A DNA stretch of 64,000 bases, taken from positions 124,001 through 188,000 of the forward strand of contig NZ_VSFC01000052.1 in NCBI RefSeq assembly GCF_008084905.1. The letters run 5' to 3'. A model generated the notes under the pieces. It did no database searches and had not been told where the DNA came from. It saw nothing but the letters and a program-made list of their open reading frames with translations. The first letter of the stretch is position 1. Each line of letters begins with the position of its first letter. This DNA is from Xanthomarina maritima (GTDB lineage Bacteria > Bacteroidota > Bacteroidia > Flavobacteriales > Flavobacteriaceae). Below, piece after piece: positions 36,444-59,571 of the stretch. The translations under genes and the position numbers were made by a program.

Positions 36444-37166
36444 TTAAGCAATATGTTTTTTATAATAATTATATAGATCCTCAGATGAAGCACCAAACCA
36501 TTTTTTTACATAAATAGCCCAAAAATGAAACTGTAGTTTCCAGATTCCGTGGGTTTGATAGCGTCTAGCTGAAGTAATTATCCATTCTTGAATAACAACA
36601 AATTGCTTTCTGGCATATAGTTTATTGATGAGGTCGTTGTCTTCATAAATGGTGAATTGTTCATCGAATTTGCCTATTTCGTTGAATAATACTTTAGTTA
36701 TAAACTGACTTTGGTCTCCACCTCTACAAGCTCTCCAAGAAAATTGAGTTAGCCAACCAGCTAATTTTAACCACCAATGTGTGCTGTCAAATTTCATTTT
36801 AAAACAACCAGCAAGATGTTCATTTTCTACTTCATTGATAATTAATTGATCGAAGTTTTTTGGAGGAAAAGAATCTGCATGAAGAAAGTATAGGATGTTG
36901 CCTTTGGCAAATTCAGCACCTGAATTCATTTGTTTGGCTCTGCCTTTTGCAGATTCTATAAGACAGAATTTTTTATCTAATGAGTTGTTGTAATGTTTTT
37001 TAAAGAATGACTTTAGTATTTCCTGAGAACCATCTGTACTTCCTCCATCTACTACAATAATTTCTGAAATATTTTCTGGATTTGAATTTAGAGCAAGATG
37101 TTGGAGCAGGTTTTGAATATTTTCTGCTTCATTTAAAATAGGTATGATGATGGAAATTTTATTCAT
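36444..37166 (-). CDS. TIGR04283-type arsenosugar biosynthesis glycosyltransferase
   Basis: This 240-residue GT-2 enzyme has KISIIIPILNEAENIQNLLQ at the N-terminus, IIVVDGGSTDGSQEI, SAKGRAKQMNSGAEFAKG and YFLHADSFPP (DxD-like His-Ala-Asp). ACRGGDQSQF and YEDNDLINKLY lie near the active site. These are typical of the TIGR04283 branch found with radical SAM ArsS. It is the last gene of the eight-gene operon, overlapping the DUF547 gene by 8 bases. It should transfer a sugar or glycerol-related group in arsenosugar synthesis; the exact step is unknown. Confidence 0.87.
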   Translation of the reverse strand: MNKISIIIPILNEAENIQNLLQHLALNSNPENISEIIVVDGGSTDGSQEILKSFFKKHYNNSLDKKFCLIESAKGRAKQMNSGAEFAKGNILYFLHADSFPPKNFDQLIINEVENEHLAGCFKMKFDSTHWWLKLAGWLTQFSWRACRGGDQSQFITKVLFNEIGKFDEQFTIYEDNDLINKLYARKQFVVIQEWIITSARRYQTHGIWKLQFHFWAIYVKKWFGASSEDLYNYYKKHIA

Positions 37167-37872
37167 TTAAATCCCAATTGTAATCCAAGAAACTCCTATT
37201 AGCCTTAGGAGATATTTCAATTTTCGAATACTGATTTAAAAAATCGATTAGACTTCCATTTTGTGTGAAATCTTCTGAAAACCATTTAAAAATTTTTGAG
37301 AGTTTGATGTTATCTTCAGACACATTGTTTTTAGTATTATCTGATAGGAACTCTTCAGTAGCAATAGTTAATTGATGATCTAATTTTGAAGGAGTGTAAG
37401 CTTCATTTAATAATTTTGGACAAGATTTTGAAGCACAAACTATAGCAAAATGAATTCTGGGTTCATCCAATTTACGCAATATATTGTGTTCAATTTCATT
37501 TAGTGACATAAGTTGTTTTTCAATTGGTATAAATTTTTCCTCCCAAGGTTTTTTTATGTCTTTAATACTTTTAATAGGATACTTATCGATAATTAGTTTG
37601 ATAGTAAAGGCATTATAAGCATTTATCCAATAGGCTAATTTTTCTTCTTTAGACCAAGAATTATTAGGTTGATTTTTTGAAAAATCGTTTAAACTGTTTA
37701 ATAATAAGCGTTGATTTTTAATTATTGATTTATAATTAACATCGCCAGAATTATTTACATGTTTTTGAAGAAATTCATTCCAAGAATTAAATTGAAGTGC
37801 TTGTGCATTGGTTGATTGAAATACACCTAAACAAATAAAAAAAATGAATAAGGAATAGATTTTAAATGTCAT
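37159..37872 (-). CDS. DUF547 domain secreted protein
   Basis: This 237-residue protein has a signal peptide (YSLFIFFICLGVFQSTNAQ). The DUF547 core follows: EKLAYWINAYNAFTIKLIID, NEIEHNILRKLDEPRIHFAI, CASKSCPKLLNEAYTPSKL. The family has a papain-like Cys/His pattern and no known enzymatic assay. Here it sits in an arsenosugar-type operon, overlapping the genes on both sides by 8 and 11 bases, which suggests it acts with them, in the periplasm. Confidence 0.87.
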   Translation of the reverse strand: MTFKIYSLFIFFICLGVFQSTNAQALQFNSWNEFLQKHVNNSGDVNYKSIIKNQRLLLNSLNDFSKNQPNNSWSKEEKLAYWINAYNAFTIKLIIDKYPIKSIKDIKKPWEEKFIPIEKQLMSLNEIEHNILRKLDEPRIHFAIVCASKSCPKLLNEAYTPSKLDHQLTIATEEFLSDNTKNNVSEDNIKLSKIFKWFSEDFTQNGSLIDFLNQYSKIEISPKANRSFLDYNWDLNE

Positions 37873-38761
37873 CCTTTTTTTTGAATTTGATTGGATACAT
37901 TTCCTGATGGATAAAATCTTTAGGAAATGTTTCGTCTCCAGAAAAGCCTAATTCAATATCACGACCATCATAAGGGATGTAATTGGTTTTAAATATATAG
38001 TCCCAGACACTTAAGGTTAAGCCATAATTTACACCATACCTTGCATGTTTTGGAAGATCTTTGACATGATGCCAAATATGCATTTTTGGATTGTTGAAGA
38101 TGTATTTTAATTTACCATAATCCCAACCCAAATTAGCATGATTTAAATGACCGATTGTTATGTTGAAAAAGTGGACAATAGCGACATCTTGAGCATCAAA
38201 TCCTCCAATAATTGCTAAAGGAATATATAAGATAGATTTGTATACTACAGGTTCCATCCAATGGTAACGTAAATGAGCAGCAAATCCCATTTCTTTTACA
38301 GAATGATGCACTTTATGGAAATTCCAAAGCAAAGGCACACAATGTAAGAGTCTGTGTGTGTTCCATTGTACAAAATCTGCAACTATAAAAAAGATAAATA
38401 GACCTAATACTTTTGGTAGATTATCAACATCAAATAGTTGAAAACTGGAAATAGACAATCCAAAAACTCCTAAAAAATCATTAAAAAATTCGGCAACGGT
38501 ATTTGATAATGCAATTAGAACTATGAGATTTAGTAGAAAGAAATTAAAAAACATGTAAAAAGTATCTAGCCAAAAATCTTTTCTAAAAATAGATTGATTT
38601 TCTCTCCAAGGAAATGCAATTTCAAGAATCCAAACTAGTATTGAAATAATAATAAGCCCATAAAAATAATTGTCCCAATGGTTTACATAAATAATCTCGT
38701 TTTTAAGATAATTAAAATAGCCAGAATAGGAGTTTTTTATTATTTCAAGATATTTTTCCAT
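37862..38761 (-). CDS. Sterol desaturase/fatty acid hydroxylase family membrane protein
   Basis: This 299-residue polytopic protein has the di-iron His clusters of the family: QWNTHRLLHCVPLLW, FHKVHHSVKEMGFA, HFFNITIGHLNHAN and HIWHHVKD. About four membrane helices flank them. Such enzymes hydroxylate or desaturate lipids at the inner membrane with O2. In this operon a lipid-modifying or arsenolipid-related step is conceivable but unproven. It starts 12 bases after the PNP stop. Confidence 0.9.
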   Translation of the reverse strand: MEKYLEIIKNSYSGYFNYLKNEIIYVNHWDNYFYGLIIISILVWILEIAFPWRENQSIFRKDFWLDTFYMFFNFFLLNLIVLIALSNTVAEFFNDFLGVFGLSISSFQLFDVDNLPKVLGLFIFFIVADFVQWNTHRLLHCVPLLWNFHKVHHSVKEMGFAAHLRYHWMEPVVYKSILYIPLAIIGGFDAQDVAIVHFFNITIGHLNHANLGWDYGKLKYIFNNPKMHIWHHVKDLPKHARYGVNYGLTLSVWDYIFKTNYIPYDGRDIELGFSGDETFPKDFIHQEMYPIKFKKKDDI

Positions 38762-38773
38762 GATAATAATTAA

Positions 38774-39586
38774 TTAAAGTGTTTTAATTAATTCTTTAAA
38801 CAAGATAATCATTTTTGGTTCTGCTTTACCAGCCATTTCTATTATTTCTTTAATATTTACAGGTTTTAAATTATCAGGATCACATTCATCTGTTAAGACA
38901 GACACTGCTGCTGCTTTTAAATTTAAATGATTGGCTACAATAATTTCAGGAACTGTACTCATTCCAACTGCATCTGCTCCAATAATTTTTAACATTCTGT
39001 ATTCAGCTCTGGTTTCTAATTGAGGTCCTGCTACACTAGCATATACACCTTCGTGTAACTTAATGTTATTTGCTTTTGAAATTTGTTTAAAAACTTGGTT
39101 TAATTTTTTGTTGTAAGGTTCGCTCATGTCTGTAAAACGTTCGCCTAAAAATTCGACACCTTTAAATGCCAAAGGAGAGCTGCCTTGAAGATTGATATGA
39201 TCGTCAATTAACATCAGTTCTCCTTTTTTGAAATTTTTGTTGATGGCTCCAGAAGCATTAGAAACTAAAAGTGTTTTTATGCCTAGTTTTTCCATAACAC
39301 GAACTGGATATGTTACATCGCGAAGCGAGTAGCCTTCGTAAATATGAAAACGACCTTGCATAACTACTACTTTTTTACCCTCTAAATTTCCGTAGATGAG
39401 TTTTCCTTTATGAAATTCGACTGTAGCTGTTGGAAAGTTTGGAATGTGGTTATAGCTAACTTCTGCAAGGATGTCTATCTCGTCAATTAATTTTTCTAAA
39501 CCAGTACCTAGAATGATGCCTATTTCTGGTTTAATAAATCCTTTTTCTTGTAAATATTCGGCAGTTTCTGTAATATATTTAATCAT
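38774..39586 (-). CDS. Purine-nucleoside phosphorylase
   Basis: This 270-residue protein is a trimeric-type (class I) PNP. Markers are EIGIILGTGLEKLID (phosphate loop), VVMQGRFHIYEGY, LLVSNASGAINKNF, AGPQLETRAEYRML (purine/ribose region) and VGMSTVPEIIVANH. It phosphorolyses purine nucleosides to base and sugar-1-phosphate. In the arsenosugar context it could remove adenine from a 5'-deoxy-5'-dimethylarsinoyl-adenosine-type intermediate. It overlaps the TIGR04282 gene by 8 bases. Confidence 0.9.
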   Translation of the reverse strand: MIKYITETAEYLQEKGFIKPEIGIILGTGLEKLIDEIDILAEVSYNHIPNFPTATVEFHKGKLIYGNLEGKKVVVMQGRFHIYEGYSLRDVTYPVRVMEKLGIKTLLVSNASGAINKNFKKGELMLIDDHINLQGSSPLAFKGVEFLGERFTDMSEPYNKKLNQVFKQISKANNIKLHEGVYASVAGPQLETRAEYRMLKIIGADAVGMSTVPEIIVANHLNLKAAAVSVLTDECDPDNLKPVNIKEIIEMAGKAEPKMIILFKELIKTL

Positions 39587-40187
39587 TTGTAATTAGCTCT
39601 TTAAGTAGTTTGTAATTGTTAAGATCTTCAAAAGTATCAATATCATTTAACTCTTCTAAAAGGTAAACGTCTAGAAGTTGTAAATCTTTTAAAGTATCTT
39701 CTAAAACTGTTGCTGTTCCCCAAGATTTATTATTAAATATATGTGGCTGAAGTTGTTTCATGCCTAATAAATAATATCCTCCATCTAGTGCAGGTCCAAT
39801 AACGACATCATGAGACTCTAATTTAAGAAAAGTTTCTGAAATATGATCTGGTTTTAAATCTAATATATCGCTTCCAACAATGATTATTTTTTCATATTTA
39901 TTATCAAAAGCATATTTAAAAGCATGTAACATTCTAGATCCTAAATCTTCTCCAATTTGTTGATGTTTCTGATAACTATTTGCGTTCCAAATATCATTTT
40001 CATTAACTTTTTCTGAATAAAAGATAGCTTTATCACAATCAAGTTCCCTAAGTGTTTGTTCAGTATGATTTAAAAGGTGTTTATAAATGTTTAAGGCAGA
40101 TTGATTGCCTATTGTTTTAGCTAATCTGGTTTTTACTTTACCTATTTCTGGGTTTCGAATAAAAACAATTATTAAATTATTAGTCAT
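39579..40187 (-). CDS. TIGR04282-type arsenosugar biosynthesis glycosyltransferase
   Basis: This 202-residue protein starts at the ATG at 40187; the open frame begins earlier inside the rhodanese gene. It shows LIIVFIRNPEIGKVKTRLAK at the N-terminus, then GEDLGSRMLHAF, VIGPALDGGYYLLG and ELNDIDTFEDLNNY, typical of the TIGR04282 nucleotidyl/glycosyltransferase-like family (cofC/GT-A fold). It lies in the arsenosugar-type operon and overlaps the rhodanese gene by 8 bases. Confidence 0.88.
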   Translation of the reverse strand: MTNNLIIVFIRNPEIGKVKTRLAKTIGNQSALNIYKHLLNHTEQTLRELDCDKAIFYSEKVNENDIWNANSYQKHQQIGEDLGSRMLHAFKYAFDNKYEKIIIVGSDILDLKPDHISETFLKLESHDVVIGPALDGGYYLLGMKQLQPHIFNNKSWGTATVLEDTLKDLQLLDVYLLEELNDIDTFEDLNNYKLLKELITND

Positions 40188-40680
40188 ATATTTTTTCTCC
40201 TTTAAGTAACCATTTGCTCCATTCTGGGGAAAATCCATGAATTTTTTCGGTTTTAGTTTCAGTGTCATCAAACACATCAAAACCTTTGTTTTTCCATTCA
40301 AAAATACCTCCATACAGGTTAAATACATTTGTGTATCCAGCTTTTGATAGTTTTTCGGCTATATCCTCTGAACGTATACCTAATGAACAGTATATAACAA
40401 TTTGTTGTTGTTTGTTACCAACTAGTTGTTTGGTGTTTTCTAAGTCAAATTCGCTAAACCCAACAAAAATGGCATCTTTTATATGGCTGACCTGGTATTC
40501 TTTAGGTTCGCGAGCATCTAAAATAACGGCTTGATTTTTTGGCATTGCTAATTCTTCAACAGAAATATAAGGGACATTGTTGGTATTGTATTTATTTAAT
40601 AATTGAGAAAGGGAATCTTGAGAAAAACTTATTTGAATACCTGATAAAAAGGCTAGTATGAATGTGATTTGTTTTTTCAT
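40180..40680 (-). CDS. Secreted rhodanese-like domain protein
   Basis: This 166-residue protein has a signal peptide (ITFILAFLSGIQISFSQ) and one rhodanese domain: AVILDAREPKEYQVSHI and the active-site loop VIYCSLGIRSEDIAEKL with the catalytic Cys. A final segment GFSPEWSKWLLKGEKIYD is unusual for a plain rhodanese and is probably family-specific. It is periplasmic, inside the arsenosugar-type operon, between arsS and the TIGR04282 gene. Confidence 0.88.
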   Translation of the reverse strand: MKKQITFILAFLSGIQISFSQDSLSQLLNKYNTNNVPYISVEELAMPKNQAVILDAREPKEYQVSHIKDAIFVGFSEFDLENTKQLVGNKQQQIVIYCSLGIRSEDIAEKLSKAGYTNVFNLYGGIFEWKNKGFDVFDDTETKTEKIHGFSPEWSKWLLKGEKIYD

Positions 40681-40720
40681 ATTTTAGAGATTAGCTTAGC
40701 TGAACCTATAGGTTTCCTGC

Positions 40721-41782
40721 CTACTCAGGAATTAGGTTTCCTTGACAGCTACTTCCTGCTCCAGCTGTACAGCCATAGCAATGTTGAGACGTTATGATGT
40801 TTCTATTTTGAAGTAATTCTTCATTGTATTCGCTAATATGTTTCACTTCGCTGTTTACTTTTAATTCTAGCATTTGGTTAAAATCACAATCGTATAGAAA
40901 TCCATCCCAACTAACAGAAATGGTATTGGTACACATTAGGCTTTTAACAGCTTCAGGATTGTAAGCCTCTACTAAAGCATACATATAATCTTCATAATTA
41001 TCGGTAGCAATTAAATAGTCTAGATATCTACTTATTGGTAGATTGGTTATTGCAAATAAGTTATTAAAATGGATGCCAAAATCATCCATTAAAGATTTTT
41101 TAAAATCTTTTTCCATAGCTGCCTGATTTCCTGGTAAAAAAGCTCCAGAAGGGTTATAAACCAAATCTAATTTTAAATTGCTATTTGGCACTCCAAATCC
41201 TATAGCATTTAATTCTTGTAACGCAGTAATAGAATTATCGAATACACCAGAACCTCTTTGTTTATCTGTTTTTCCTTTTGTCCAATGAGGCATGGATGAA
41301 ATGATATGGATGTTGTGATTTTTAAAGAATTCGGGTAAGTCGTAATATTTTTTATTGGCTCTTAATATTGTTAGGTTAGAGCGTACAATAACATCCTTAA
41401 TACCAACTTTGGTAGCTTCTTCTACAAACCATCTAAAGCTTGGGTTCATTTCTGGAGCTCCACCAGTTAAATCTAAGGTATGTGCATGCGTGGATTTAAT
41501 AACCTCTAAACATTGAAGCATGGTTTCTTTGGTCATAATCTCTTTTCTGTCTGGACCTGCATCAACGTGGCAATGTTCGCATACCTGATTACACATATAA
41601 CCCAAATTGATTTGAAGTATTTCCAGTTTATTGGGACGAAGTGGGAACTGATTTGATTCAGTTAATTTATTTTTAAAAGTAACAAGCTCACCATTTTTAA
41701 AAATACCATTAGATAGTATTTCTATCTGTCTAGAGCTATTTGCTAAGTCACTTTCTCGTTTATGTAAAGATTTTGTTTTCAA
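40721..41782 (-). CDS. arsS: Arsenosugar biosynthesis radical SAM protein ArsS
   Basis: This 353-residue protein has the radical SAM cluster motif GYMCNQVCEHCHVDAG (CxxxCxxC), DLTGGAPEMNPSFRWF and a C-terminal Cys-rich part (YDCDFNQMLEL, then HCYGCTAGAGSSCQG). ArsS proteins act on dimethylated arsenic with S-adenosylmethionine to form the adenosyl-type arsenosugar precursor. The only usable start is TTG at 41782: a stop lies two codons upstream and no ATG occurs before GYMC. It stands 20 bases after the peroxidase-like gene. Confidence 0.93.
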   Translation of the reverse strand: MKTKSLHKRESDLANSSRQIEILSNGIFKNGELVTFKNKLTESNQFPLRPNKLEILQINLGYMCNQVCEHCHVDAGPDRKEIMTKETMLQCLEVIKSTHAHTLDLTGGAPEMNPSFRWFVEEATKVGIKDVIVRSNLTILRANKKYYDLPEFFKNHNIHIISSMPHWTKGKTDKQRGSGVFDNSITALQELNAIGFGVPNSNLKLDLVYNPSGAFLPGNQAAMEKDFKKSLMDDFGIHFNNLFAITNLPISRYLDYLIATDNYEDYMYALVEAYNPEAVKSLMCTNTISVSWDGFLYDCDFNQMLELKVNSEVKHISEYNEELLQNRNIITSQHCYGCTAGAGSSCQGNLIPE

Positions 41783-41802
41783 TTTCTAGAATACAACTAC
41801 AA

Positions 41803-42138
41803 TTAACCGTCTAACTTATTTACTTTATTCATCATCTGAACACCATGAACTAAAGATGCTCCACCACGAATAGCAGCTGCTACATGTAAAGCTTCCATCA
41901 TTTCTTCTTTAGTAATGCCTCTTTGTAAACCATCTCCAGTATAAGCATCAATACAATAAGGACATTGAATGGTATGTGCTACAGCTAAAGCTATTAGAGA
42001 CTTTTCTCTTTCGGAAAGCGAACCTTCTTTAAAGACGGAATTATAATATTCAAAAAATTTAGAGCCTAACTCTTCGTTCCAATCAGATATTTTTCCAAAT
42101 TTCTTAAGATCGGATGGATCATAATAGGTTTTTTGCAT
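41803..42138 (-). CDS. Arsenosugar-associated peroxidase-like protein (AhpD/CMD family)
   Basis: This 111-residue protein has the carboxymuconolactone decarboxylase/AhpD CxxC-His centre: CPYCIDAYTGDGLQRG and MEALHVAAAIRGGASLVHG. In TIGRFAM-style naming this is the peroxidase-like partner of ArsS (TIGR04169). It is the first gene of the minus-strand operon. Confidence 0.9.
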   Translation of the reverse strand: MQKTYYDPSDLKKFGKISDWNEELGSKFFEYYNSVFKEGSLSEREKSLIALAVAHTIQCPYCIDAYTGDGLQRGITKEEMMEALHVAAAIRGGASLVHGVQMMNKVNKLDG

Positions 42139-43140: not shown

Positions 43141-43230
43141 CTTAGTAGCAGTTGCAGTTGTGGTTTTGTAATAGCATAGGTTTTGGGATTGGAAGTGACG
43201 TATTTAATTATTCATTTAAAAAATCATATT

Positions 43231-43983
43231 ATGGCAAAATTTAAAGGTCTGTTTCCTGTAGTTGGAACAATAGGAGGTGTTAATTTTTATTATTTAAACG
43301 GAGAACTAGTTGCCAGAAAGGCTGGTGGTGGATTTAATGGCAAGGCTATAAAATCTAAGAAATCGATGCAACGTGTTCGGGAGAATGGTCATGAATTTGG
43401 ACAAAGCTCTCGAGTAAATAAGGCTTTTAGAATGGCTTTACGGCCTTTTTATAAAGGATATAGGTTTCCTTTTTTTCACAGTAGGTTGATGAGCTTGTTT
43501 ACAAGATTGAAAGATTTAGATGCTGTTAATCCTAGAGGAAAGCGTGTTGTTGGAGAAGGTGTTACTGATGTTAATGGACTGGCTCTGTTGAAAACGTTCA
43601 TTTACACACCTGATTGTGACCTAGCCCGTGTTTTACCATTTAATTATGATGTTGCTGCGATTAGCTATGCTTTGACTATTTCTGGATTTGATATTAAGCA
43701 GGTTGGGTTTATATCTGGTGCCACACATGTTGAATTGACATATGGGGTTTTGGATTTTGATTTTACTGGGTTAAATTCTGAGTTGTATTTGGCAACACCA
43801 GTGATGCTTTCTAAAGGGTTTACAGGGCATTCGGTTGTGCTTAGTCCTTTTGTGACACCAACTATTACTGGAACCCGATTAAGTGTCATGGGTGTGCGTT
43901 TTTATCAGGAAGTTGATGGGGTTATGTATGTGCTAAATGCTAAAGAAGGGGTTGGGATTTCTGTTTTGTATGTTGAGAGTTGA
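43231..43983 (+). CDS. Orphan protein of a flavobacterial family, unknown
   Basis: This 250-residue protein starts at the ATG at 43231; the open frame extends 16 codons upstream. The N-terminus (KGLFPVVGTIGGVNFYYL, ARKAGGGFNGKAIK, SMQRVRENGHEFGQSSRVNK) is a pattern I recognise in multi-copy uncharacterised Flavobacteriaceae proteins. The C-terminal half is beta-rich. No signal peptide. G/T-rich codon use differs from its neighbours, which suggests horizontal origin. No function known to me. Confidence 0.7.
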   Translation: MAKFKGLFPVVGTIGGVNFYYLNGELVARKAGGGFNGKAIKSKKSMQRVRENGHEFGQSSRVNKAFRMALRPFYKGYRFPFFHSRLMSLFTRLKDLDAVNPRGKRVVGEGVTDVNGLALLKTFIYTPDCDLARVLPFNYDVAAISYALTISGFDIKQVGFISGATHVELTYGVLDFDFTGLNSELYLATPVMLSKGFTGHSVVLSPFVTPTITGTRLSVMGVRFYQEVDGVMYVLNAKEGVGISVLYVES

Positions 43984-48282: not shown

Positions 48283-51200
48283 ATGCTAAACAAAAGCATC
48301 AAATTTTTAATAGAGAATAAACTCGTTGCCGTACTACTACTCGTCCTTTTTGTAGGATGGGGAACAGTCAATGCACCTTTTAATTGGGGCACAGGATTTT
48401 TGCCAAGCAATCCTGTGGCTGTAGATGCCATTCCAGATATTGGAGAAAACCAACAAATTGTATTTACCAAATGGGATGGTCGTTCACCACAAGATATAGA
48501 AGACCAAATTACCTATCCGCTAACAACTACACTACTCGGTATTCCAGGCGTAAAAACCATTCGTAGTTCGTCTATGTTCGGCTTTTCGAGTATCTATATC
48601 ATTTTTGAAGAAGATATAGAGTTCTATTGGAGCAGAAGTCGCATATTAGAAAAACTAAACTCATTACCAAGTGGTTTATTACCTGAAGGTGTCAATCCTG
48701 CTTTGGGTCCAGATGCCACAGGATTAGGTCAAATTTTTTGGTACACACTTGAAGGACGTGATGAAAACGGAAACGTAACTGGTGGTTGGGATTTACAAGA
48801 GTTACGCAGTATTCAAGATTACTATGTAAAATATGCACTATCCTCTGCAAGTGGCGTCTCAGAAGTTGCATCCATTGGTGGTTATGTTCAAGAGTACCAA
48901 GTGGATGTAAATCCAGAATTGATGCGTCAATATAATATTGGATTGAACCAAGTGGTAAAAGCAGTTAAGGAAAGCAACAAAGACATTGGAGCACAAACAT
49001 TAGAGATTAATCAAGCAGAATATTTAGTGCGAGGATTGGGTTATGTAAAATCTATAGAAGACATCGAAAATGCCGTAGTTACTTCCGAAGATTATACAGC
49101 CATACGAATCAAAGACATTGGAAAAGTTTCCTTAGGGCCAGCAATCAGACGTGGTATTTTAGATAAAGAAGGTGCAGAAGTTGTAGGTGCTGCTGTTGTG
49201 GCACGTTATGGTGCCAACCCCATGGAAGTTATTAATAATGTGAAAGCCAAAATAAGCGAATTAAGCGCAGGATTACCTTCCAAAGTATTAGCAGATGGTA
49301 GAACCTCACAAGTCACTATAGTACCATTTTATGATAGAACCGTATTAATTCAAGAAACATTAGACACCCTTAACGAGGCATTGACTTTAGAAATTCTAAT
49401 TACCATTTTGGTTATTATCATTATGGTATTTAATCTTCGAGCGTCCATATTAATTTCTGGCTTATTGCCTGTTGCGGTTTTAATGGTTTTTATCGCGATG
49501 AAGTTCTTTGGAGTCGATGCCAACATTGTTGCTTTATCAGGTATTGCCATTGCGATTGGTACTATGGTGGATGTGGGTGTGATACTTTCAGAAAACATTA
49601 TAAGGCACTTGGATGAAAGTGAAAAGCGAACAGTTAAAAGTGAAAAGTTAAAAGTGAATAGTGAAAAGTTAGAAGTGAATGGTGAGGTTCTTCACCCTTT
49701 TCAGAATGACAAACGTTCAATAAACCAAATTGTTTATAATGCTACGGCCGAGGTTTCTGGAGCCATAGTAACTGCAGTAATGACCACGATTATCAGTTTT
49801 ATTCCTGTTTTTACAATGATTGGAGCAGAAGGAAAATTGTTCAGACCATTAGCTTTTACAAAAACCTTTGCTCTAACAGCATCTATTATTGTCGCTTTAT
49901 TTTTAATCCCACCATTTGCAGCCTTTTTATTCAGAAAGAAACCCATTAAAACCACTTTTAAAACTATTTTAAATGGTGTTTTAATAGCATTGGGAATCGT
50001 TGCCATAGTCTATGGATACTGGTTAGGATTGATTTTGATAGCGTTTGGAATTACAGCACTTCTCAATCTTCAAAATAAGATAACAGACAAACAAGCTAAT
50101 CTTATCAATATCATTATTTCAGCATCAGCAATCATATTTCTGTTAGCCAAATATTGGCGACCATTAGGTGTTGATAAAAGCATTTTTTGGAATCTCATTT
50201 TTGTAAGTGTTATATGCTTTGGTTTATTAGGTGTTTTCTCATTATTTATTAAATACTACACGCGTATTTTAAGATGGTGTTTAGATAACAAATTAGTGTT
50301 TCTATCTGTACCAACAGCCATCGTCATTGCAGGGTTTTTCATTATGAAGAACACAGGTAAAGAGTTTATGCCATCTTTAAATGAAGGCTCATTTCTGTTA
50401 ATGCCAACCTCCATGCCTCATTCTGGTGTGGAAGAAAATAAACGCGTTTTACAGCAATTGGATATGGCAGTAGCCAGCATTCCAGAGATTGAAACCGTTG
50501 TAGGTAAAGCAGGTAGAACAGAATCAGCTTTGGATCCAGCACCATTATCCATGTATGAGAACATCATTCAGTATAAACCAGAGTACATGCTGAATGAACA
50601 AGGCGAACGTCAACGCTACAAAATCAATGAGGATGGTTTGTTTGAATTGAAAGATGGACGATTGGCTTTTGATGGAAGTGACAGACTAAAGGAATCGTCA
50701 GGTCGAGTGTCACGAGGAACGAGTGATGTATCGAGACCTAATGCTTCTCGATACAATTCTGATGAAAAATCAGAATCACTCGAAGTGACAACTAATGTTG
50801 AGCAATCTCAATTAGTTGAAGACAAGGATGGCGAATACTATCGCAATTGGAGACCAGAAATTGAATCACCAGACGATATTTGGAATGAGATTGTAAGAGT
50901 CACCAAATTACCAGGCGTTACGTCAGCACCAAAACTACAACCTATTGAAACCCGATTGGTCATGCTTCAAACAGGCATGCGAGCCCCTATGGGAATTAAG
51001 GTGAAAGGCCAAGACTTAAAGCAAATTGAAGCGTTTGGCGTCCAATTAGAAAACATTATCAAGGAAGCCGAAGGCGTTAAAAAGGAAGCCGTTTTTGCCG
51101 ACCGTATTGTTGGTAAACCGTATTTGTTAATTGATATTGATAGAGAGAAAATAGCACGTTATGGTGTAAGTATTGAAGAGGTACAAAACGTATTAAAAGT

Positions 51201-52155
51201 AGCTGTTGGAGGTATGGTATTAACACAAACGGTTGAAGGCAGAGAACGCTATGGTGTTCGTGTGCGATACCCAAGAGAATTACGAGCAAATCCAACAGAC
51301 TTACAACAGATTTATGTGCCAGTTTCAACAGGTCGTCCTGTGCCTTTAAGCGAATTGGCAACCATTCGCTACGAACAAGGGCCACAAGTCATTAAAAGTG
51401 AAGACACCTTTTTAGTAGGTTATGTCTTGTTCGATAAACAAGCTGGTTTTGCAGAAGTAAGCGTTGTTGAACATGCACAAGCCTTAATTCAAGAAAAGAT
51501 AGAATCTGGTGAATTGATTGTTCCAAAAGGAATCAACTATGCATTCACAGGAACTTACGAAAATCAATTACGAGCAGAAAAAACGCTATCCGTTGTTGTG
51601 CCATTAGCTTTGACAATCATCTTTTTAATTCTGTATTTCCAATTCCGTTCAGTAAGCACATCACTCATGGTGTTTACAGGAATTGCAGTGGCCTTTGCTG
51701 GTGGTTTTATAATGATATGGCTCTATGGACAAGATTGGTTTTTAAACTTCAATGTCTTTGGTGAAAATCTGCGTGATTTATTCCAAATGCATCCCATTAA
51801 TTTGAGTGTTGCTGTTTGGGTTGGGTTTATTGCCCTTTTCGGAATTGCAACCGATGATGGTGTAGTAATGGCAACCTATTTAACGCAAACTTTTGATAGA
51901 AATACACCAGAAAATAAAAAGGAAATTAGAGCGTCCATAGTAGAAGCAGGAGAAAAACGTATCAGACCTTGTTTGATGACCACAGCAACCACTATTCTAG
52001 CCTTGCTGCCAATATTAACCTCTACAGGGCGAGGTAGTGATATTATGATTCCTATGGCCATCCCAAGTTTTGGAGGCATGCTTATAGCCTTAATCACCTT
52101 ATTTGTAGTTCCCGTATTATATAGCTGGAAAGCTGAGTTTAAAGTGAAAAGCTAA
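48283..52155 (+). CDS. cusA: CusA/CzcA-family heavy-metal efflux RND transporter
   Basis: This 1290-residue inner-membrane pump is longer than E. coli CusA (about 1040) through the flavobacterial extra helices (about residues 550-640) and two repeat-derived insertions. Markers are TKWDGRSPQDIEDQITYPL, RSSSMFGFSSIYIIFEE, the proton-relay segment VDVGVILSENIIRHLDE in TM4, LNEGSFLLMPTSMPHSGVE and TDDGVVMATYLTQTF. The Met-containing METR-type segment IETRLVMLQTGMRAPMGIKV and copper-type neighbours favour Cu(I)/Ag(I). It pumps metal through a CusB adaptor and TolC-like channel, all present here. Repeats occupy about residues 446-476 and 807-836, and the last codons with stop also lie in a repeat. 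Confidence 0.93.
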   Translation: MLNKSIKFLIENKLVAVLLLVLFVGWGTVNAPFNWGTGFLPSNPVAVDAIPDIGENQQIVFTKWDGRSPQDIEDQITYPLTTTLLGIPGVKTIRSSSMFGFSSIYIIFEEDIEFYWSRSRILEKLNSLPSGLLPEGVNPALGPDATGLGQIFWYTLEGRDENGNVTGGWDLQELRSIQDYYVKYALSSASGVSEVASIGGYVQEYQVDVNPELMRQYNIGLNQVVKAVKESNKDIGAQTLEINQAEYLVRGLGYVKSIEDIENAVVTSEDYTAIRIKDIGKVSLGPAIRRGILDKEGAEVVGAAVVARYGANPMEVINNVKAKISELSAGLPSKVLADGRTSQVTIVPFYDRTVLIQETLDTLNEALTLEILITILVIIIMVFNLRASILISGLLPVAVLMVFIAMKFFGVDANIVALSGIAIAIGTMVDVGVILSENIIRHLDESEKRTVKSEKLKVNSEKLEVNGEVLHPFQNDKRSINQIVYNATAEVSGAIVTAVMTTIISFIPVFTMIGAEGKLFRPLAFTKTFALTASIIVALFLIPPFAAFLFRKKPIKTTFKTILNGVLIALGIVAIVYGYWLGLILIAFGITALLNLQNKITDKQANLINIIISASAIIFLLAKYWRPLGVDKSIFWNLIFVSVICFGLLGVFSLFIKYYTRILRWCLDNKLVFLSVPTAIVIAGFFIMKNTGKEFMPSLNEGSFLLMPTSMPHSGVEENKRVLQQLDMAVASIPEIETVVGKAGRTESALDPAPLSMYENIIQYKPEYMLNEQGERQRYKINEDGLFELKDGRLAFDGSDRLKESSGRVSRGTSDVSRPNASRYNSDEKSESLEVTTNVEQSQLVEDKDGEYYRNWRPEIESPDDIWNEIVRVTKLPGVTSAPKLQPIETRLVMLQTGMRAPMGIKVKGQDLKQIEAFGVQLENIIKEAEGVKKEAVFADRIVGKPYLLIDIDREKIARYGVSIEEVQNVLKVAVGGMVLTQTVEGRERYGVRVRYPRELRANPTDLQQIYVPVSTGRPVPLSELATIRYEQGPQVIKSEDTFLVGYVLFDKQAGFAEVSVVEHAQALIQEKIESGELIVPKGINYAFTGTYENQLRAEKTLSVVVPLALTIIFLILYFQFRSVSTSLMVFTGIAVAFAGGFIMIWLYGQDWFLNFNVFGENLRDLFQMHPINLSVAVWVGFIALFGIATDDGVVMATYLTQTFDRNTPENKKEIRASIVEAGEKRIRPCLMTTATTILALLPILTSTGRGSDIMIPMAIPSFGGMLIALITLFVVPVLYSWKAEFKVKS
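49618..49710 (+). repeat. GTGAAAA-type repeat plus TTCAGAATGAC unit inside cusA
   Basis: In-frame block made of AGTGAAAAGCGAACAGTTAA, then AGTGAAAAGTTAAAAGTGAA and further variants, followed by GGTTCTTCACCCTTTTCAGA-type sequence and ATGAC. It encodes a charged stretch (SEKRTVKSEKLKVNSEKLEV) in the cytoplasmic loop after TM4 of CusA. The same repeat family recurs at 52141 and, inverted, at 52625. Confidence 0.75.
50701..50790 (+). repeat. Palindromic intergenic-type repeat inserted in frame in cusA
   Basis: Nested inverted repeats: TGTATCGAGA (50727-50736) with TCTCGATACA (50746-50755), 10 bp; TTCTGAT with ATCAGAA (50757-50775); outer CGAGTGA (50720-50726) with TCACTCG (50776-50782) and GTCAC (50709-50713) with GTGAC (50785-50789). 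It encodes about 30 low-complexity residues in a periplasmic loop. The pattern looks like the short intergenic repeats of flavobacteria. Confidence 0.8.
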
Positions 52156-53960: not shown

Positions 53961-56498
53961 ATGAAACACACCTATCACATACACGGAATGACTTGCAACG
54001 GTTGTCGTACTCACGTAGAAGAAACACTTTCAAAAGTGGAAGGTGTTTCAAAAGCAACAGTCAATTTAGAAAAGGCCGAAGCCACCATCGAAATGGCATT
54101 GCATATTCCTATAGAGACCTTTCAAGAAGCCTTAAAAAATGATGGTGGGAGATACAGTATCCATAATCAAGGCGAAAAGCCCCACCCAGCCTCCCCAAAG
54201 GGGAGGAGCCAAAAAAAAGAGGAAACACATGCGCACAAGAGTAAAAACAGCCCCCTTCGGTGGTTGGGGGCTTTTTATTGTCCTATGCATTGCGAAGGCG
54301 ATAAAACTTATGAAAAACCAGGCGATTGTCCTGTTTGCGGCATGGATTTGGTCGAAGAACAAAATCTATCATCGGCTACAACAGAACAATGGACGTGTCC
54401 AATGCACCCAGAAGTTATAAAGGATGAGGCAGGTTCGTGTACTATTTGCGGTATGGATTTAGTACCAATGAAACCTGACCTTTCAGCTGAAGAAAAGACC
54501 TATAAAAAATTATTGAAGAAGTTTTGGATAGCAACTGCATTCACATTACCAATATTCTTAATTGCCATGAGCGAAATGCTCAACAACAACCCATTATACG
54601 ATATCATGGAACAGAAATATTGGAATTGGATTCAGTTTGCATTATCTATTCCAGTTGTATTTTATGCCACGTGGATGTTCTTTGAACGTGCTTATAGAAG
54701 TATAAAAACGTGGAACCTCAATATGTTTACCCTCATTGGGATTGGCGCAGGTGTGGCTTGGTTATTTAGTGTTGTAGGTATGTTGTTTCCAGATGTGTTT
54801 CCGGCACAGTTTAAAACAGACCATGGAGCTGTGCATGTCTATTTTGAGGCAGCAACTGTTATTCTAACCTTGGTGCTTTTAGGGCAGTTGTTAGAAGCTC
54901 GTGCCCATAGTAAAACCAATTCGGCTGTCAAAGAATTATTAAAGTTAGCACCCAATAAAGCTATAAAAGTAGTTGATGGCGAAGATGTTGAAGTAACCAT
55001 TGATGCTATTGAATTAAATGATATCCTAAAAGTAAAACCAGGTGATAAAATTCCTGTGGATGGTGTGATAACCGAAGGCGAAACAACCATTGACGAATCT
55101 ATGATTACAGGAGAACCCATTCCTGTAAACAAATCTCAAGATGATAAAGTAAGTAGCGGAACCATTAATGGGAATCAATCCTTTTTAATGAAAGCTGAAA
55201 AAGTAGGAAGTGACACCTTACTCTCACAAATCATCCATATGGTTAATGATGCCAGTAGAAGTCGCGCACCTATTCAAAATTTAGCAGATAAGGTGTCAGG
55301 TTATTTTGTGCCTGTAGTCGTTCTTATTTCTATCATCACTTTTATTGTATGGTCTATTTGGGGACCAGAACCCGTGTATGTATATGCCTTGGTCAATGCC
55401 ATTGCTGTTCTAATCATTGCGTGTCCTTGTGCCTTGGGATTGGCAACACCTATGTCTGTAATGGTTGGTGTGGGAAAAGGTGCTCAAAATGGTGTACTGA
55501 TTAAAAATGCCGAAGCTCTCGAAAAAATGGATAAGGTAAATACACTTATAGTTGACAAAACAGGAACCATAACCGAAGGGAAACCAACAGTAGAAACAGT
55601 AGGAGCTTTTGGTGATAGCTTTAACGAAAAACAAGTATTGAGTTATATAGTATCCTTAAACAATAATAGCGAACATCCATTAGCGGAAGCAACAGTTAAA
55701 TATGGAAAAGAACATAATGCTGAAATAATAAAATCTGAAAACTTTAGTGCTGTCACAGGAAAAGGTGTTGAAGCTATCATAAATGATAAAAAAGTAGCAT
55801 TAGGAAATCCTAAAATGATGGACTATGCCAAAGCAGATATTACTTCTAAAATGAAAGACGAAGCTAAAACGTATCAAAAGCAAGGTAAAACAGTTTCTTA
55901 TTTATCAATAGATGAAAGCGTTGTTGGCTATGTAGTTATAGGCGATAAAATAAAAGAAACAAGTGCTAAAGCTATTAAAACACTACAAGATAAAGGCATT
56001 GATGTTATAATGCTCACGGGCGACAATCACGATACGGCACAAGCAGTAGCATCAGAACTAAATCTGGCAGATTTTAAAGCCAGTATGTTACCAGAAGACA
56101 AGCTTAAAGAAGTAGAAAAATTACAAGAAAAAGGAAAGGTGGTTGCCATGGCAGGTGATGGCATTAACGATGCACCAGCATTGGCAAAAAGCGATGTAGG
56201 TATTGCCATGGGAACAGGCACAGATGTGGCTATAGAAAGTGCCATGATAACCTTGGTAAAAGGTGATTTACACGGCATTGTAAAGGCCAGAAATTTAAGT
56301 CATTCTGTGATGAAAAACATTAAACAAAATCTATTTTTTGCGCTTATTTATAACACCTTAGGTGTGCCAATAGCCGCAGGCGTGTTGTTTCCTTTTTTCG
56401 GCATATTACTCTCGCCAATGATAGCAGCTTTAGCCATGAGTTTTAGCTCTGTTTCTGTAATAGGAAATGCACTACGATTAAGAACAGCAAAAGTATAA
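53961..56498 (+). CDS. copA: Heavy-metal P-type ATPase (CopA-like)
   Basis: This 845-residue ATPase has an HMA domain (GMTCNGC, Cys12/Cys15), two heavy-metal-binding modules (FYCPMHCEGDKTY...DCPVCGMDL and TCPMHPEVIKDEAGSCTICG), a CPC motif in IIACPCALGLATP (488-490), the phosphorylated Asp in VDKTGTITEGKP (about 532), NSEHPLAEAT and GDGINDAPALAKSD. These define a P1B-1 Cu(I)/Ag(I) exporter of the inner membrane. Residues about 74-104 in the linker between HMA and metal modules are repeat-derived. It follows the TolC-like gene by 89 bases. Confidence 0.95.
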   Translation: MKHTYHIHGMTCNGCRTHVEETLSKVEGVSKATVNLEKAEATIEMALHIPIETFQEALKNDGGRYSIHNQGEKPHPASPKGRSQKKEETHAHKSKNSPLRWLGAFYCPMHCEGDKTYEKPGDCPVCGMDLVEEQNLSSATTEQWTCPMHPEVIKDEAGSCTICGMDLVPMKPDLSAEEKTYKKLLKKFWIATAFTLPIFLIAMSEMLNNNPLYDIMEQKYWNWIQFALSIPVVFYATWMFFERAYRSIKTWNLNMFTLIGIGAGVAWLFSVVGMLFPDVFPAQFKTDHGAVHVYFEAATVILTLVLLGQLLEARAHSKTNSAVKELLKLAPNKAIKVVDGEDVEVTIDAIELNDILKVKPGDKIPVDGVITEGETTIDESMITGEPIPVNKSQDDKVSSGTINGNQSFLMKAEKVGSDTLLSQIIHMVNDASRSRAPIQNLADKVSGYFVPVVVLISIITFIVWSIWGPEPVYVYALVNAIAVLIIACPCALGLATPMSVMVGVGKGAQNGVLIKNAEALEKMDKVNTLIVDKTGTITEGKPTVETVGAFGDSFNEKQVLSYIVSLNNNSEHPLAEATVKYGKEHNAEIIKSENFSAVTGKGVEAIINDKKVALGNPKMMDYAKADITSKMKDEAKTYQKQGKTVSYLSIDESVVGYVVIGDKIKETSAKAIKTLQDKGIDVIMLTGDNHDTAQAVASELNLADFKASMLPEDKLKEVEKLQEKGKVVAMAGDGINDAPALAKSDVGIAMGTGTDVAIESAMITLVKGDLHGIVKARNLSHSVMKNIKQNLFFALIYNTLGVPIAAGVLFPFFGILLSPMIAALAMSFSSVSVIGNALRLRTAKV
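54180..54272 (+). repeat. GC-rich palindromic repeat inserted in frame in copA
   Basis: Two hairpins: CCTCCCC-AAA-GGGGAGG (54190-54206) and AGCCCCC-(10 bases)-GGGGGCT (54249-54272), the latter followed by TTTTT, so it is terminator-like. Local GC is far above the surroundings. It encodes a low-complexity linker (HPASPKGRSQKKEETHAHKS and a few more residues). Confidence 0.8.
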
Positions 56499-57320: not shown

Positions 57321-57803
57321 ATGGAAAATTCAAAAGAACACTTAAACAACCGAAATTACAAAACCTTCTTTATCATGTTGGCTTGCTCATTTGTAGCAAT
57401 GTACATCACCATGTATTTAAATACCTATTCCATAGACCACGTATGGTTTAGTTTAACACGCTTTTATATGACCTGTTTAGGGATTTCAACCATGGCAGTC
57501 ATCATGTGGTTTTATATGCGAAAAATGTATAATGATAAAAAGAAGAATATCGCCATACTTGCAGGTAGTTTTATTCTGTTTGTTGGTGCATTAGGGTTGG
57601 TTAGAACACAAGCGCCAATTATTGGTGATGTCCTTTGGATGAAAGCCATGATACCACATCATTCTATCGCTATTTTAACAAGTGAAAGAGCAGATATTAA
57701 AGACCTAGAAGTTAAAAAATTAGCAGAAGACATTATTAAAGCACAACGTAAAGAAATAGAAGAAATGAAAGCCATGATAAAACGATTAGAAAATGAAAAA
57801 TAA
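57321..57803 (+). CDS. DUF305 family membrane protein
   Basis: This 160-residue protein has N-terminal membrane helices (FFIMLACSFVAMYITMYL; MAVIMWFYMRKMY; ILAGSFILFVGALGLVRT) and the DUF305 segment WMKAMIPHHSIAILTSERAD, whose Met/His pattern suggests metal binding. A charged coiled-coil tail ends the protein. It overlaps cusB by 11 bases. Confidence 0.87.
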   Translation: MENSKEHLNNRNYKTFFIMLACSFVAMYITMYLNTYSIDHVWFSLTRFYMTCLGISTMAVIMWFYMRKMYNDKKKNIAILAGSFILFVGALGLVRTQAPIIGDVLWMKAMIPHHSIAILTSERADIKDLEVKKLAEDIIKAQRKEIEEMKAMIKRLENEK

Positions 57804-59571
57804 TAAAATACTGATATACATTGGGTTGCTAGTAGCAGGTGTTCTATTAGGATGGTTGCTTTTTGGTGGCTCATCAAGCGAACAGACAGAACATAATCAC
57901 GATGTGGTTGCAGAGACCAATCAAATGTGGACCTGTTCTATGCATCCACAAATTATGCAACCAGAACCTGGTGATTGCCCTATTTGCGGTATGGATTTAA
58001 TTCCTGCCGAAAGTGGAAGTGATGGCCTATTAGCAGACCAATTCAAGTTAACCGAAAATGCGATGGCTTTAGCCAATATACAAACAACTATAGTCGGCAA
58101 AGGAAATGTTGATGGCAACACCCTTAAATTATCTGGTAAAATTGCTGAAAATGAAGAAGCCAATGCAGTACAGGTCAGTTATTTTTCAGGAAGAATAGAA
58201 CGTTTGAATGTGAGCTTTACAGGCGAAGAAGTTCGTAAAGGTCAATTATTGGCCACCATTTATTCGCCAGAATTGTATGCAGCACAACAAGAATTGATTA
58301 CAGCTTCATCATTAAAGGAATCGCAACCTGCATTATATAAAGCAGTTCGTAATAAATTGAAGTTGTGGAAGCTCTCTGAAAATCAAATCAATCAAATAGA
58401 AGAAACTGGAAAAGTAAAAGAAAACTTTCCAGTGTATGCAACGGTTTCAGGAACAGTTACTGAAAAATTAGTAGAACAAGGCGATTACATCAAACAAGGT
58501 CAACCATTGCTTAAAATTGCAAATCTCAATACGGTTTGGGCAAACTTTGATGTCTATGAAAATCAAATCGATGTATTTAAAAAGGGACAAGACGTTTTAG
58601 TGGCTACAAACGCTTATGCTAATAAGGAGTTTAAGGGGAAAGTAGATTTTATTGAACCCATTCTAAATACTAACACAAGAACAGTAACCTTACGTGTGGT
58701 ACTTACTAATAAAAACGATGTATTTAAACCAGGCATGTTTGTAACCGCCAATATTGAACGAGTTTCAAGAAGTCATGATGAGGTATTAACAATTCCAGCC
58801 TCTGCTGTACTTTGGACAGGAGAACGTTCTGTTGTGTATGTAAAAGTTAATCCTAATCAACCAGTTTTTGAAATGCGTGAAGTTACATTAGGCAATCAAA
58901 TTGGTAATGACTATGAAGTTTTAGAAGGCTTATTTGTTGGCAATGAAATAGTAACCAACGGAACGTTTACTGTTGATGCAGCAGCACAATTACAAGGTAA
59001 AAAATCTATGATGAATAAAGATGGTGGCAAAGTAATGACTGGTCACGAAGGACATTTAGGAATAGACAATAATGCATCAAAAAAAGAAAGTGATCATACT
59101 AATATGAACGAAAGATTGACAGTATCAGGGAAATTTCAAGAACAATTAAAAGTTGTTTACAATGATTATATCAATTTAAAAGATGCTTTAGTTAAAGAAG
59201 ATTCAAAAAACACTTCAGTTAATGCAACAAGTTTATTAAACAATTTAAGTAAAGTGAATATGAAATTATTATCAGACAACAATGCTCACACCCATTGGAT
59301 GTCATTAGTAGGCGACATACAATCTTCTGCAATCTCTATTTCTAAAACGTCAGATATAAAAGAACAAAGAGATCATTTCAAACATCTATCATCACACTTA
59401 ATAAATGCTGTACAATTGTTTGGTGTTAATGAAAAAGTGTATGTGGAATTTTGTCCCATGGCAGATAACAACAAGGGTGCGTATTGGTTAAGTAAAGAAG
59501 AAAAAGTAATCAATCCATATTTTGGTAGCGCCATGCTAACCTGTGGAGAAGTAAAACAAGTTATAGAATAA
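57793..59571 (+). CDS. cusB: CusB-like RND periplasmic adaptor with metal-binding and DUF3347 domains
   Basis: This 592-residue protein has an N-terminal anchor (IYIGLLVAGVLLGWLLFGG), a heavy-metal-binding module at about residues 45-72 (MWTCSMHPQIMQPEPGDCPI then CGMDL), and the adaptor core (barrel-sandwich SYFSGRIERLNVSFTGEEVR, lipoyl-like YATVSGTVTEKLVEQGDYIK). A C-terminal DUF3347 domain covers about 445-592 (VVYNDYINLKDALVKEDS; CPMADNNKGAYWLSKEEKVI). It bridges CusA and the TolC-like channel and probably passes Cu/Ag to the pump. Confidence 0.93.
   Translation: MKNNKILIYIGLLVAGVLLGWLLFGGSSSEQTEHNHDVVAETNQMWTCSMHPQIMQPEPGDCPICGMDLIPAESGSDGLLADQFKLTENAMALANIQTTIVGKGNVDGNTLKLSGKIAENEEANAVQVSYFSGRIERLNVSFTGEEVRKGQLLATIYSPELYAAQQELITASSLKESQPALYKAVRNKLKLWKLSENQINQIEETGKVKENFPVYATVSGTVTEKLVEQGDYIKQGQPLLKIANLNTVWANFDVYENQIDVFKKGQDVLVATNAYANKEFKGKVDFIEPILNTNTRTVTLRVVLTNKNDVFKPGMFVTANIERVSRSHDEVLTIPASAVLWTGERSVVYVKVNPNQPVFEMREVTLGNQIGNDYEVLEGLFVGNEIVTNGTFTVDAAAQLQGKKSMMNKDGGKVMTGHEGHLGIDNNASKKESDHTNMNERLTVSGKFQEQLKVVYNDYINLKDALVKEDSKNTSVNATSLLNNLSKVNMKLLSDNNAHTHWMSLVGDIQSSAISISKTSDIKEQRDHFKHLSSHLINAVQLFGVNEKVYVEFCPMADNNKGAYWLSKEEKVINPYFGSAMLTCGEVKQVIE

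Follow-up and report, generated by a model that had tools for sequence, protein, structure and literature searches.

Enzymes of the ArsS family attach dimethyl-arsenic to the adenosyl group of S-adenosylmethionine (SAM) at its 5' carbon, which yields 5'-deoxy-5'-dimethylarsinoyl-adenosine. In the ArsM-ArsS arsenosugar pathway, ArsS (TIGR04167) is accompanied by an arsenosugar-type arsenite methyltransferase, ArsM (NF038099). A related system was analyzed in a 64,000-nucleotide stretch of the Xanthomarina maritima genome (Flavobacteriaceae; contig NZ_VSFC01000052.1, positions 124,001 to 188,000), referred to below as the window, in which arsS belongs to a block of eight coupled genes at positions 36444-42138 on the minus strand. 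The conserved block probably builds arsenic-containing sugars, judging by the families of its proteins and their recurrence in relatives; since the gene for the usual starting material, arsM, was not found, the strain may depend on methylated arsenic from other organisms. The arsenosugar naming is already that of NCBI, and the gap at arsM had been missed by an earlier, sequence-only reading of this DNA.

Catalysis by ArsS is the sole step of the pathway with published enzymology (Cheng et al. 2021, as cited in the accessible part of PMC12159101). Within the open-licence literature, subscription papers lying outside the scope, no paper was found in which the steps beyond ArsS are assigned to genes, and the accessible parts of PMC13171826 and PMC7345539 contained nothing on these genes.

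The eight-gene operon and its conservation

Eight open reading frames (ORFs) from a program-made list, all open and coupled, fill the block, and their products were assigned with NCBIfam and Pfam profiles at curated cut-offs. In the direction of transcription they encode an AhpD/CMD-like peroxidase-like protein (TIGR04169; 41803-42138; 189.9 bits, cut-off 120), the radical SAM protein ArsS (40721-41782, with an uncertain TTG start; 435.4 bits, cut-off 300), a rhodanese-domain protein (NF045521; 40180-40680; 210.8 bits, cut-off 145), a nucleotidyltransferase-like TIGR04282/DUF2064 protein (39579-40187; 215.2 bits, cut-off 134), a purine-nucleoside phosphorylase (PNP; NF006054; 38774-39586; 344.6 bits, cut-off 218), a membrane protein of the fatty-acid-hydroxylase/sterol-desaturase type (PF04116; 37862-38761; 90 bits, cut-off 31), a DUF547 protein with a hydrophobic N terminus (PF04784; 37159-37872; 104.9 bits, cut-off 27), and a family-2-type glycosyltransferase (TIGR04283; 36444-37166; 236.8 bits, cut-off 182). 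The curated cut-off was thus passed by each of ArsS, TIGR04169, TIGR04282, TIGR04283, the rhodanese, and PNP. Four of the families carry the NCBI label "arsenosugar," which is a name only and no test of function.

Neighboring genes overlap by 8 bases (TIGR04283/DUF547, PNP/TIGR04282, and TIGR04282/rhodanese) or 11 bases (DUF547/hydroxylase), or are separated by 12 (hydroxylase-PNP), 40 (rhodanese-arsS), and 20 bases (arsS-peroxidase-like gene). The start of TIGR04282 was placed at position 40187, an ATG, instead of at 40328, where the mechanical ORF begins, and the 8-base overlap with the rhodanese gene assumes 40187. The sequence-only reading had described eight minus-strand genes in this order with overlaps of 8-11 and gaps of 12-40 bases, all of which was borne out by the ORFs and profiles. 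It had also called the rhodanese secreted; by eye its N terminus does resemble a signal peptide, but it is unmarked in the hydropathy scan, whose signals among the operon proteins are confined to three hydroxylase stretches and the N terminus of the DUF547 protein.

Conservation was assessed in the best 80 of at least 590 genome matches to the window ArsS, nearly all titled Flavobacteriaceae. Counting genes on the same strand within the fetched stretch, which in 13 of the 80 loci held less than 9.5 kb of downstream sequence, the peroxidase-like gene was present in all 80 loci, followed by TIGR04282 (66), PNP (63), the rhodanese (55), and ArsM (51), with DUF547 (42), TIGR04283 (36), and the hydroxylase (23) less common. 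All eight genes are kept in the same order in the eight available genomes of the genus, one of which (G321) has two genes inserted. The operon is genuine, conserved, and of a known type; recurrence of its order in relatives and in 8/8 genus genomes places it beyond chance. A comparison of gene order among relatives had been called for at the outset; clustering recurs there, and the opposite outcome, relatives in which the genes never cluster, did not occur. In two genomes (G155 and G159) the operon is split, the peroxidase-like gene and arsS forming a pair at one place and the remaining genes lying at another.

Across the phylum, ArsS exceeded its cut-off in 121/296 sampled genomes, from which 53 ArsS loci of 25 families were hand-picked for family spread, 47 of them outside the window's family. 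Within 5 kb of ArsS in these 53 loci, the peroxidase-like gene was found in 44, TIGR04282 in 23, TIGR04283 in 19, DUF547 in 9, and PNP in 3, all three from Flavobacteriaceae. The core is therefore ArsS with the peroxidase-like gene, to which one or both transferase families are added in about half of the loci. Among the 47 loci outside the family, neither PNP nor the rhodanese occurred within 5 kb, and the hydroxylase was represented by weak matches in two. Given this scarcity, the long operon is a Flavobacteriaceae form as opposed to the general arsenosugar cluster.

The position of arsM

In 45 of the 63 PNP-bearing related loci, arsM (NF038099; 577.8 bits for the member from one relative) directly follows PNP, and the window, as read from the sequence, has 12 bases there (38762-38773). 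In the Flavobacteriaceae sample, NF038099 was over its cut-off in 13/14 ArsS-positive and 0/16 ArsS-negative genomes, the exception being the window's own genome, and in the phylum sample all 19 NF038099-positive genomes were also ArsS-positive. This co-occurrence ties the unit to arsenic methylation. As 102 of the 121 ArsS-positive genomes in the phylum have no NF038099 over cut-off, a genome lacking it stands out only inside the family.

Two genus members (G323 and G324) carry arsM after PNP in the operon. The five others besides the window's genome (G321, G322, G325, G326, and G327) have another ArsM-type gene elsewhere, scoring 93-99 bits to NF038099 and so below its cut-off; the three of these genes that were tested (G321, G322, and G325) passed NF008823. 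Five of the six genus members without an operon arsM hence have such a gene, by which arsenic methylation appears to be retained in the neighboring members, and the window's genome (G000), below cut-off for both NF038099 and NF008823, is the only one of the eight with neither.

The genome, a draft of 62 contigs with a completeness of 99.98%, was searched with the NF038099 profile, one NF038099 member, and NF008823, and the best matches reached 26 and 41 bits. The best match was considered as a possible ArsM and rejected, being of the UbiE/MenG type (TIGR01934, 255.5 bits). At the site of the G325 ArsM gene, the window's genome has the flanking helicase followed by a different ORF and no arsM, and the contigs are unbroken at both sites where the gene would be expected. 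Among 25 ArsS-positive genomes hand-picked from the 80 loci, in part because no arsM was present there, neither ArsM family exceeded its cut-off in seven, and one more, G010, had just a fragment of 61 residues.

Neither the operon nor the genome searches yielded an arsM, so the strain has no evident means of producing methylated arsenic. Relative to most of the family, the pathway here appears to skip the opening step, with the later ones plausible. That the block forms one pathway from methylated arsenic to an arsenosugar, as the sequence-only reading proposed, agrees with the conserved unit, the four labelled families, the ArsM of relatives, and a PNP type that tracks ArsS; it fits less well with the lack of an arsM found here and with the restriction of the long operon to one family.

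Candidate steps and rival explanations

We favor, tentatively and with a probability of roughly 0.45, a Flavobacteriaceae form of an arsenosugar-building operon that is fed here with dimethylated arsenic which the strain does not evidently make. Taken in the order ArsS, PNP, TIGR04282, and TIGR04283, the proteins make chemical sense, and we infer every step after ArsS. Dimethyl-arsenic, whose supply would have to be external, would be joined by ArsS to the adenosyl group of SAM as in the rest of the family; PNP would swap adenine for phosphate to leave an arsenic-sugar 1-phosphate; TIGR04282, to judge from its fold, would couple this compound to a nucleotide, giving a nucleoside diphosphate (NDP)-sugar; and TIGR04283 would form a glycoside by passing the sugar on to an acceptor, either glycerol or a lipid. 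The hydroxylase, the DUF547 protein, and the rhodanese, the last two probably exported, might act at the envelope to complete or handle the product. The more specific version, in which a sugar-nucleotide route with a dedicated PNP ends in transfer to an envelope lipid and is fed wholly by methylated arsenic from others, its own first enzyme having been discarded, is rather unlikely.

ArsS looks intact. In an alignment with 140 other sequences it keeps 97 of the 98 positions at which at least 95% of them agree and all eight conserved Cys, both radical-SAM and C-terminal. In the genus comparison, nonsynonymous divergence (dN) is well below synonymous divergence (dS) in all eight operon genes. 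Such conservation and low dN favor use of ArsS over decay but are no proof of it. The window TIGR04282 had seemed the fastest evolving of the genus, an artefact of a too-early start that disappeared when the sequences were trimmed to the true start (mean dN of 0.247, compared with 0.265 in L225 and 0.257 in another genome). Among the related loci, one (L054:8743-9948) has a single 401-aa ORF that fuses a phosphoesterase to the TIGR04169 peroxidase-like domain.

Among Flavobacteriaceae, the PNP type follows ArsS. Within the family sample, a PNP match at an expectation value (E) of <1e-100 was found in 14/14 ArsS-positive and 1/16 ArsS-negative genomes (Fisher 2e-7, kinship uncorrected), and within the genus g2 in 3/3 and 0/14, respectively (Fisher 0.0015, kinship uncorrected). 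The three ArsS-positive g2 genomes have an additional, second PNP of a His type at 47-50% identity. Among 54 PNPs compared, the residue at window position 245 is Ile, Val, or Leu in 49 and His in five, namely, the second g2 copies plus two from g2 genomes without ArsS. Human PNP presumably holds the 5'-OH with a His at this position, where MTAP has Val. The window PNP has Ile at position 245, Thr in its GTG motif, and Asp in its TD motif, and these motifs also occur in ArsS-negative genomes. Reading the three residues as adaptations to an arsenic substrate was dropped as specific evidence because Asp is shared with the second g2 PNPs and the whole motif set occurs in genomes without ArsS. The class may tolerate 5'-deoxy sugars generally and may have been recruited. 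In both G211 (L241) and G074 (L240), a pair of PNP genes lies side by side, and one member of the pair has TN replacing TD at the base-binding motif.

The closest solved relative of TIGR04282 by sequence is 3cgx, and 2i5e, which we take to be a CofC, is matched at an E of 0.083 only. A model built from 36 sequences (predicted local distance difference test [pLDDT] of 95.4) ranked 3cgx first by fold, followed by 3-phospho-D-glycerate guanylyltransferase (7p97), 2i5e (MM2497), and Rv2983. The best match, 3cgx, carries no assigned reaction, and the top-ranked named enzymes are nucleotidyltransferases. On this ranking, nucleotidyltransferase is a likelier identity than sugar transferase for the protein, formerly read as a transferase; the model accords more with nucleotide activation of a phosphorylated compound than with the "glycosyltransferase" in the family's name. 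In several relatives, arsS is followed by a second TIGR04282-like protein with a shorter match and no KTRLA motif, such as L022:11053-11736, which scores 110.4 bits against the TIGR04282 cut-off of 134.

TIGR04283 has no hydrophobic stretch in the hydropathy scan and a distant similarity to polyprenyl-phosphate glycosyltransferases. The hydroxylase has three hydrophobic stretches and His clusters. A lipid acceptor is suggested only by this membrane hydroxylase and by that distant similarity. A model of the DUF547 protein (pLDDT of 93.9) gave no PDB match at E <= 0.001; one related locus (L011) has four DUF547 ORFs in a row.

Several observations weigh against the pathway as proposed. No import gene was identified in the genome, the SusC/SusD/symporter profiles having been run on the window only. 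True glycosyltransferases share the general fold of TIGR04282, although they stand lower in the same structure list, and neither TIGR04282 nor TIGR04283 lies within 5 kb in 27 of the 53 ArsS loci, so that neither is needed beside ArsS everywhere. ArsS itself has Phe at position 196, where all 140 other aligned sequences have Tyr, and its mean dN of 0.110 is the highest of the eight genus genomes (0.084-0.105 in the others). One ArsS-negative family genome (G207) has the same PNP type. An arsenosugar might also be made while PNP is an ordinary enzyme, or a recycler of purine nucleosides or 5'-deoxyadenosine, and the sugar is released otherwise. Consistent with this, the window's genome gave one PNP match only, as a housekeeping enzyme would, a PNP match at E <= 1e-60 occurs in 271/296 genomes of the phylum sample, the same PNP motifs are common in ArsS-negative Bacteroidota of other families, and PNP lies within 5 kb of ArsS in 0/47 loci outside the family. 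Salvage of 5'-deoxyadenosine has been described as well (PMC8102628, accessible part). Such a role is a serious but doubtful alternative, as the PNP type tracks ArsS in the family, including in the three g2 genomes that possess a second, His-type PNP, and PNP stays with TIGR04282 and arsM in the split operons of G155 and G159.

Doubts about arsenic itself, about activity, and about the search carry less weight. The missing arsM, the seven picked genomes with neither ArsM family over cut-off, and the 102 ArsS-positive phylum genomes without NF038099 would all be accounted for if the ArsS-like enzyme adenosylated another acceptor in this strain, making arsM dispensable; this is improbable for an ArsS well above the curated cut-off with 97/98 conserved positions, in a genus where five of the six members without operon arsM have another ArsM-type gene. 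A pathway decaying after the loss of arsM and now idle would agree with the high dN and the unique change in ArsS, but eight open, coupled frames with dN well under dS, and a trimmed TIGR04282 that is not the fastest of its genus, make it very improbable. Fainter still is the chance that arsM is present in an assembly gap or belongs to an unsearched family: 62 contigs and searches limited to two profiles and one member leave some room for it, which is narrowed by the completeness of the assembly, the unbroken contigs at both known places, and best matches as weak as 26 and 41 bits, the better-placed one of the UbiE/MenG type.

Under the favored reading of an externally fed arsenosugar operon, the phosphorylase, the nucleotidyltransferase-like protein, and the glycosyltransferase behind ArsS offer three single-enzyme entry points to a long-open route. 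A strain that keeps the unit without a recognizable arsM would suggest that marine bacteria can draw on a community's shared methylated arsenic when they form arsenosugars.

Neighboring genes and comparison with known systems

Genes for SusC, SusD, a sodium:solute symporter, and a calcineurin-like phosphoesterase lie in or beside the ArsS operon in eight related loci (L022, L026, L029, L032, L033, L036, L054, and L056). Such a block was present in the operon of 5/7 ArsM-less and 3/18 other genomes, with G010 counted among the 18 (Fisher P of 0.017, from 25 hand-picked, related genomes), which is a hint only of an import route for methylated arsenic. The window operon lacks this block, and a profile search confined to the window gave no clear SusC, SusD, or symporter match beyond a short SusC-like ORF. 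A PHO4 phosphate-transporter gene, mostly adjoining arsM, occurs in the operon region of L003, L007, L010, L041, L045, L047, L057, and L077, and this transporter might bring in arsenate. Downstream in the window, metal-efflux genes encode a CusA/CzcA-type resistance-nodulation-division (RND) pump, a copper-type P-ATPase, and an RND adaptor (48283-52155, 53961-56498, and 57793-59571). The 266-aa ORF at 43183-43983, downstream of a divergent AhpC/TSA gene, had no Pfam or PHROGs match at the thresholds used, and PHROGs returned nothing for the two proteins tried.

Compared with lipid hydroxylases of the OlsE type (NF052566), the operon hydroxylase shares the FA_hydroxylase superfamily but scores 87.4 bits against a cut-off of 475. 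The PNP resembles NF006054 members, well over that cut-off, and the solved chain 4lna, its closest, which it matches over the full length (E of 3e-89); it differs in narrowly missing the inosine/guanosine-specific TIGR01700 (290.4 bits, cut-off 293.35) and in having Ile where the second g2 PNPs have His. With CofC/FbiD-type and 3-phospho-D-glycerate guanylyltransferases, TIGR04282 shares the fold and a weak CofC match (TIGR03552, 42.2 bits), whereas it remains below the CofC cut-off of 105 and has ArsS and PNP as neighbors. In comparison to the ArsM-ArsS arsenosugar pathway, no ArsM was found in this genome; the likeness lies in an ArsS that belongs to the curated family and keeps the conserved residues and in the matching ArsM held by the operon of relatives, and the locus departs from that pathway in that further genes, beyond the peroxidase-like gene and the two transferase families, are coupled to ArsS.

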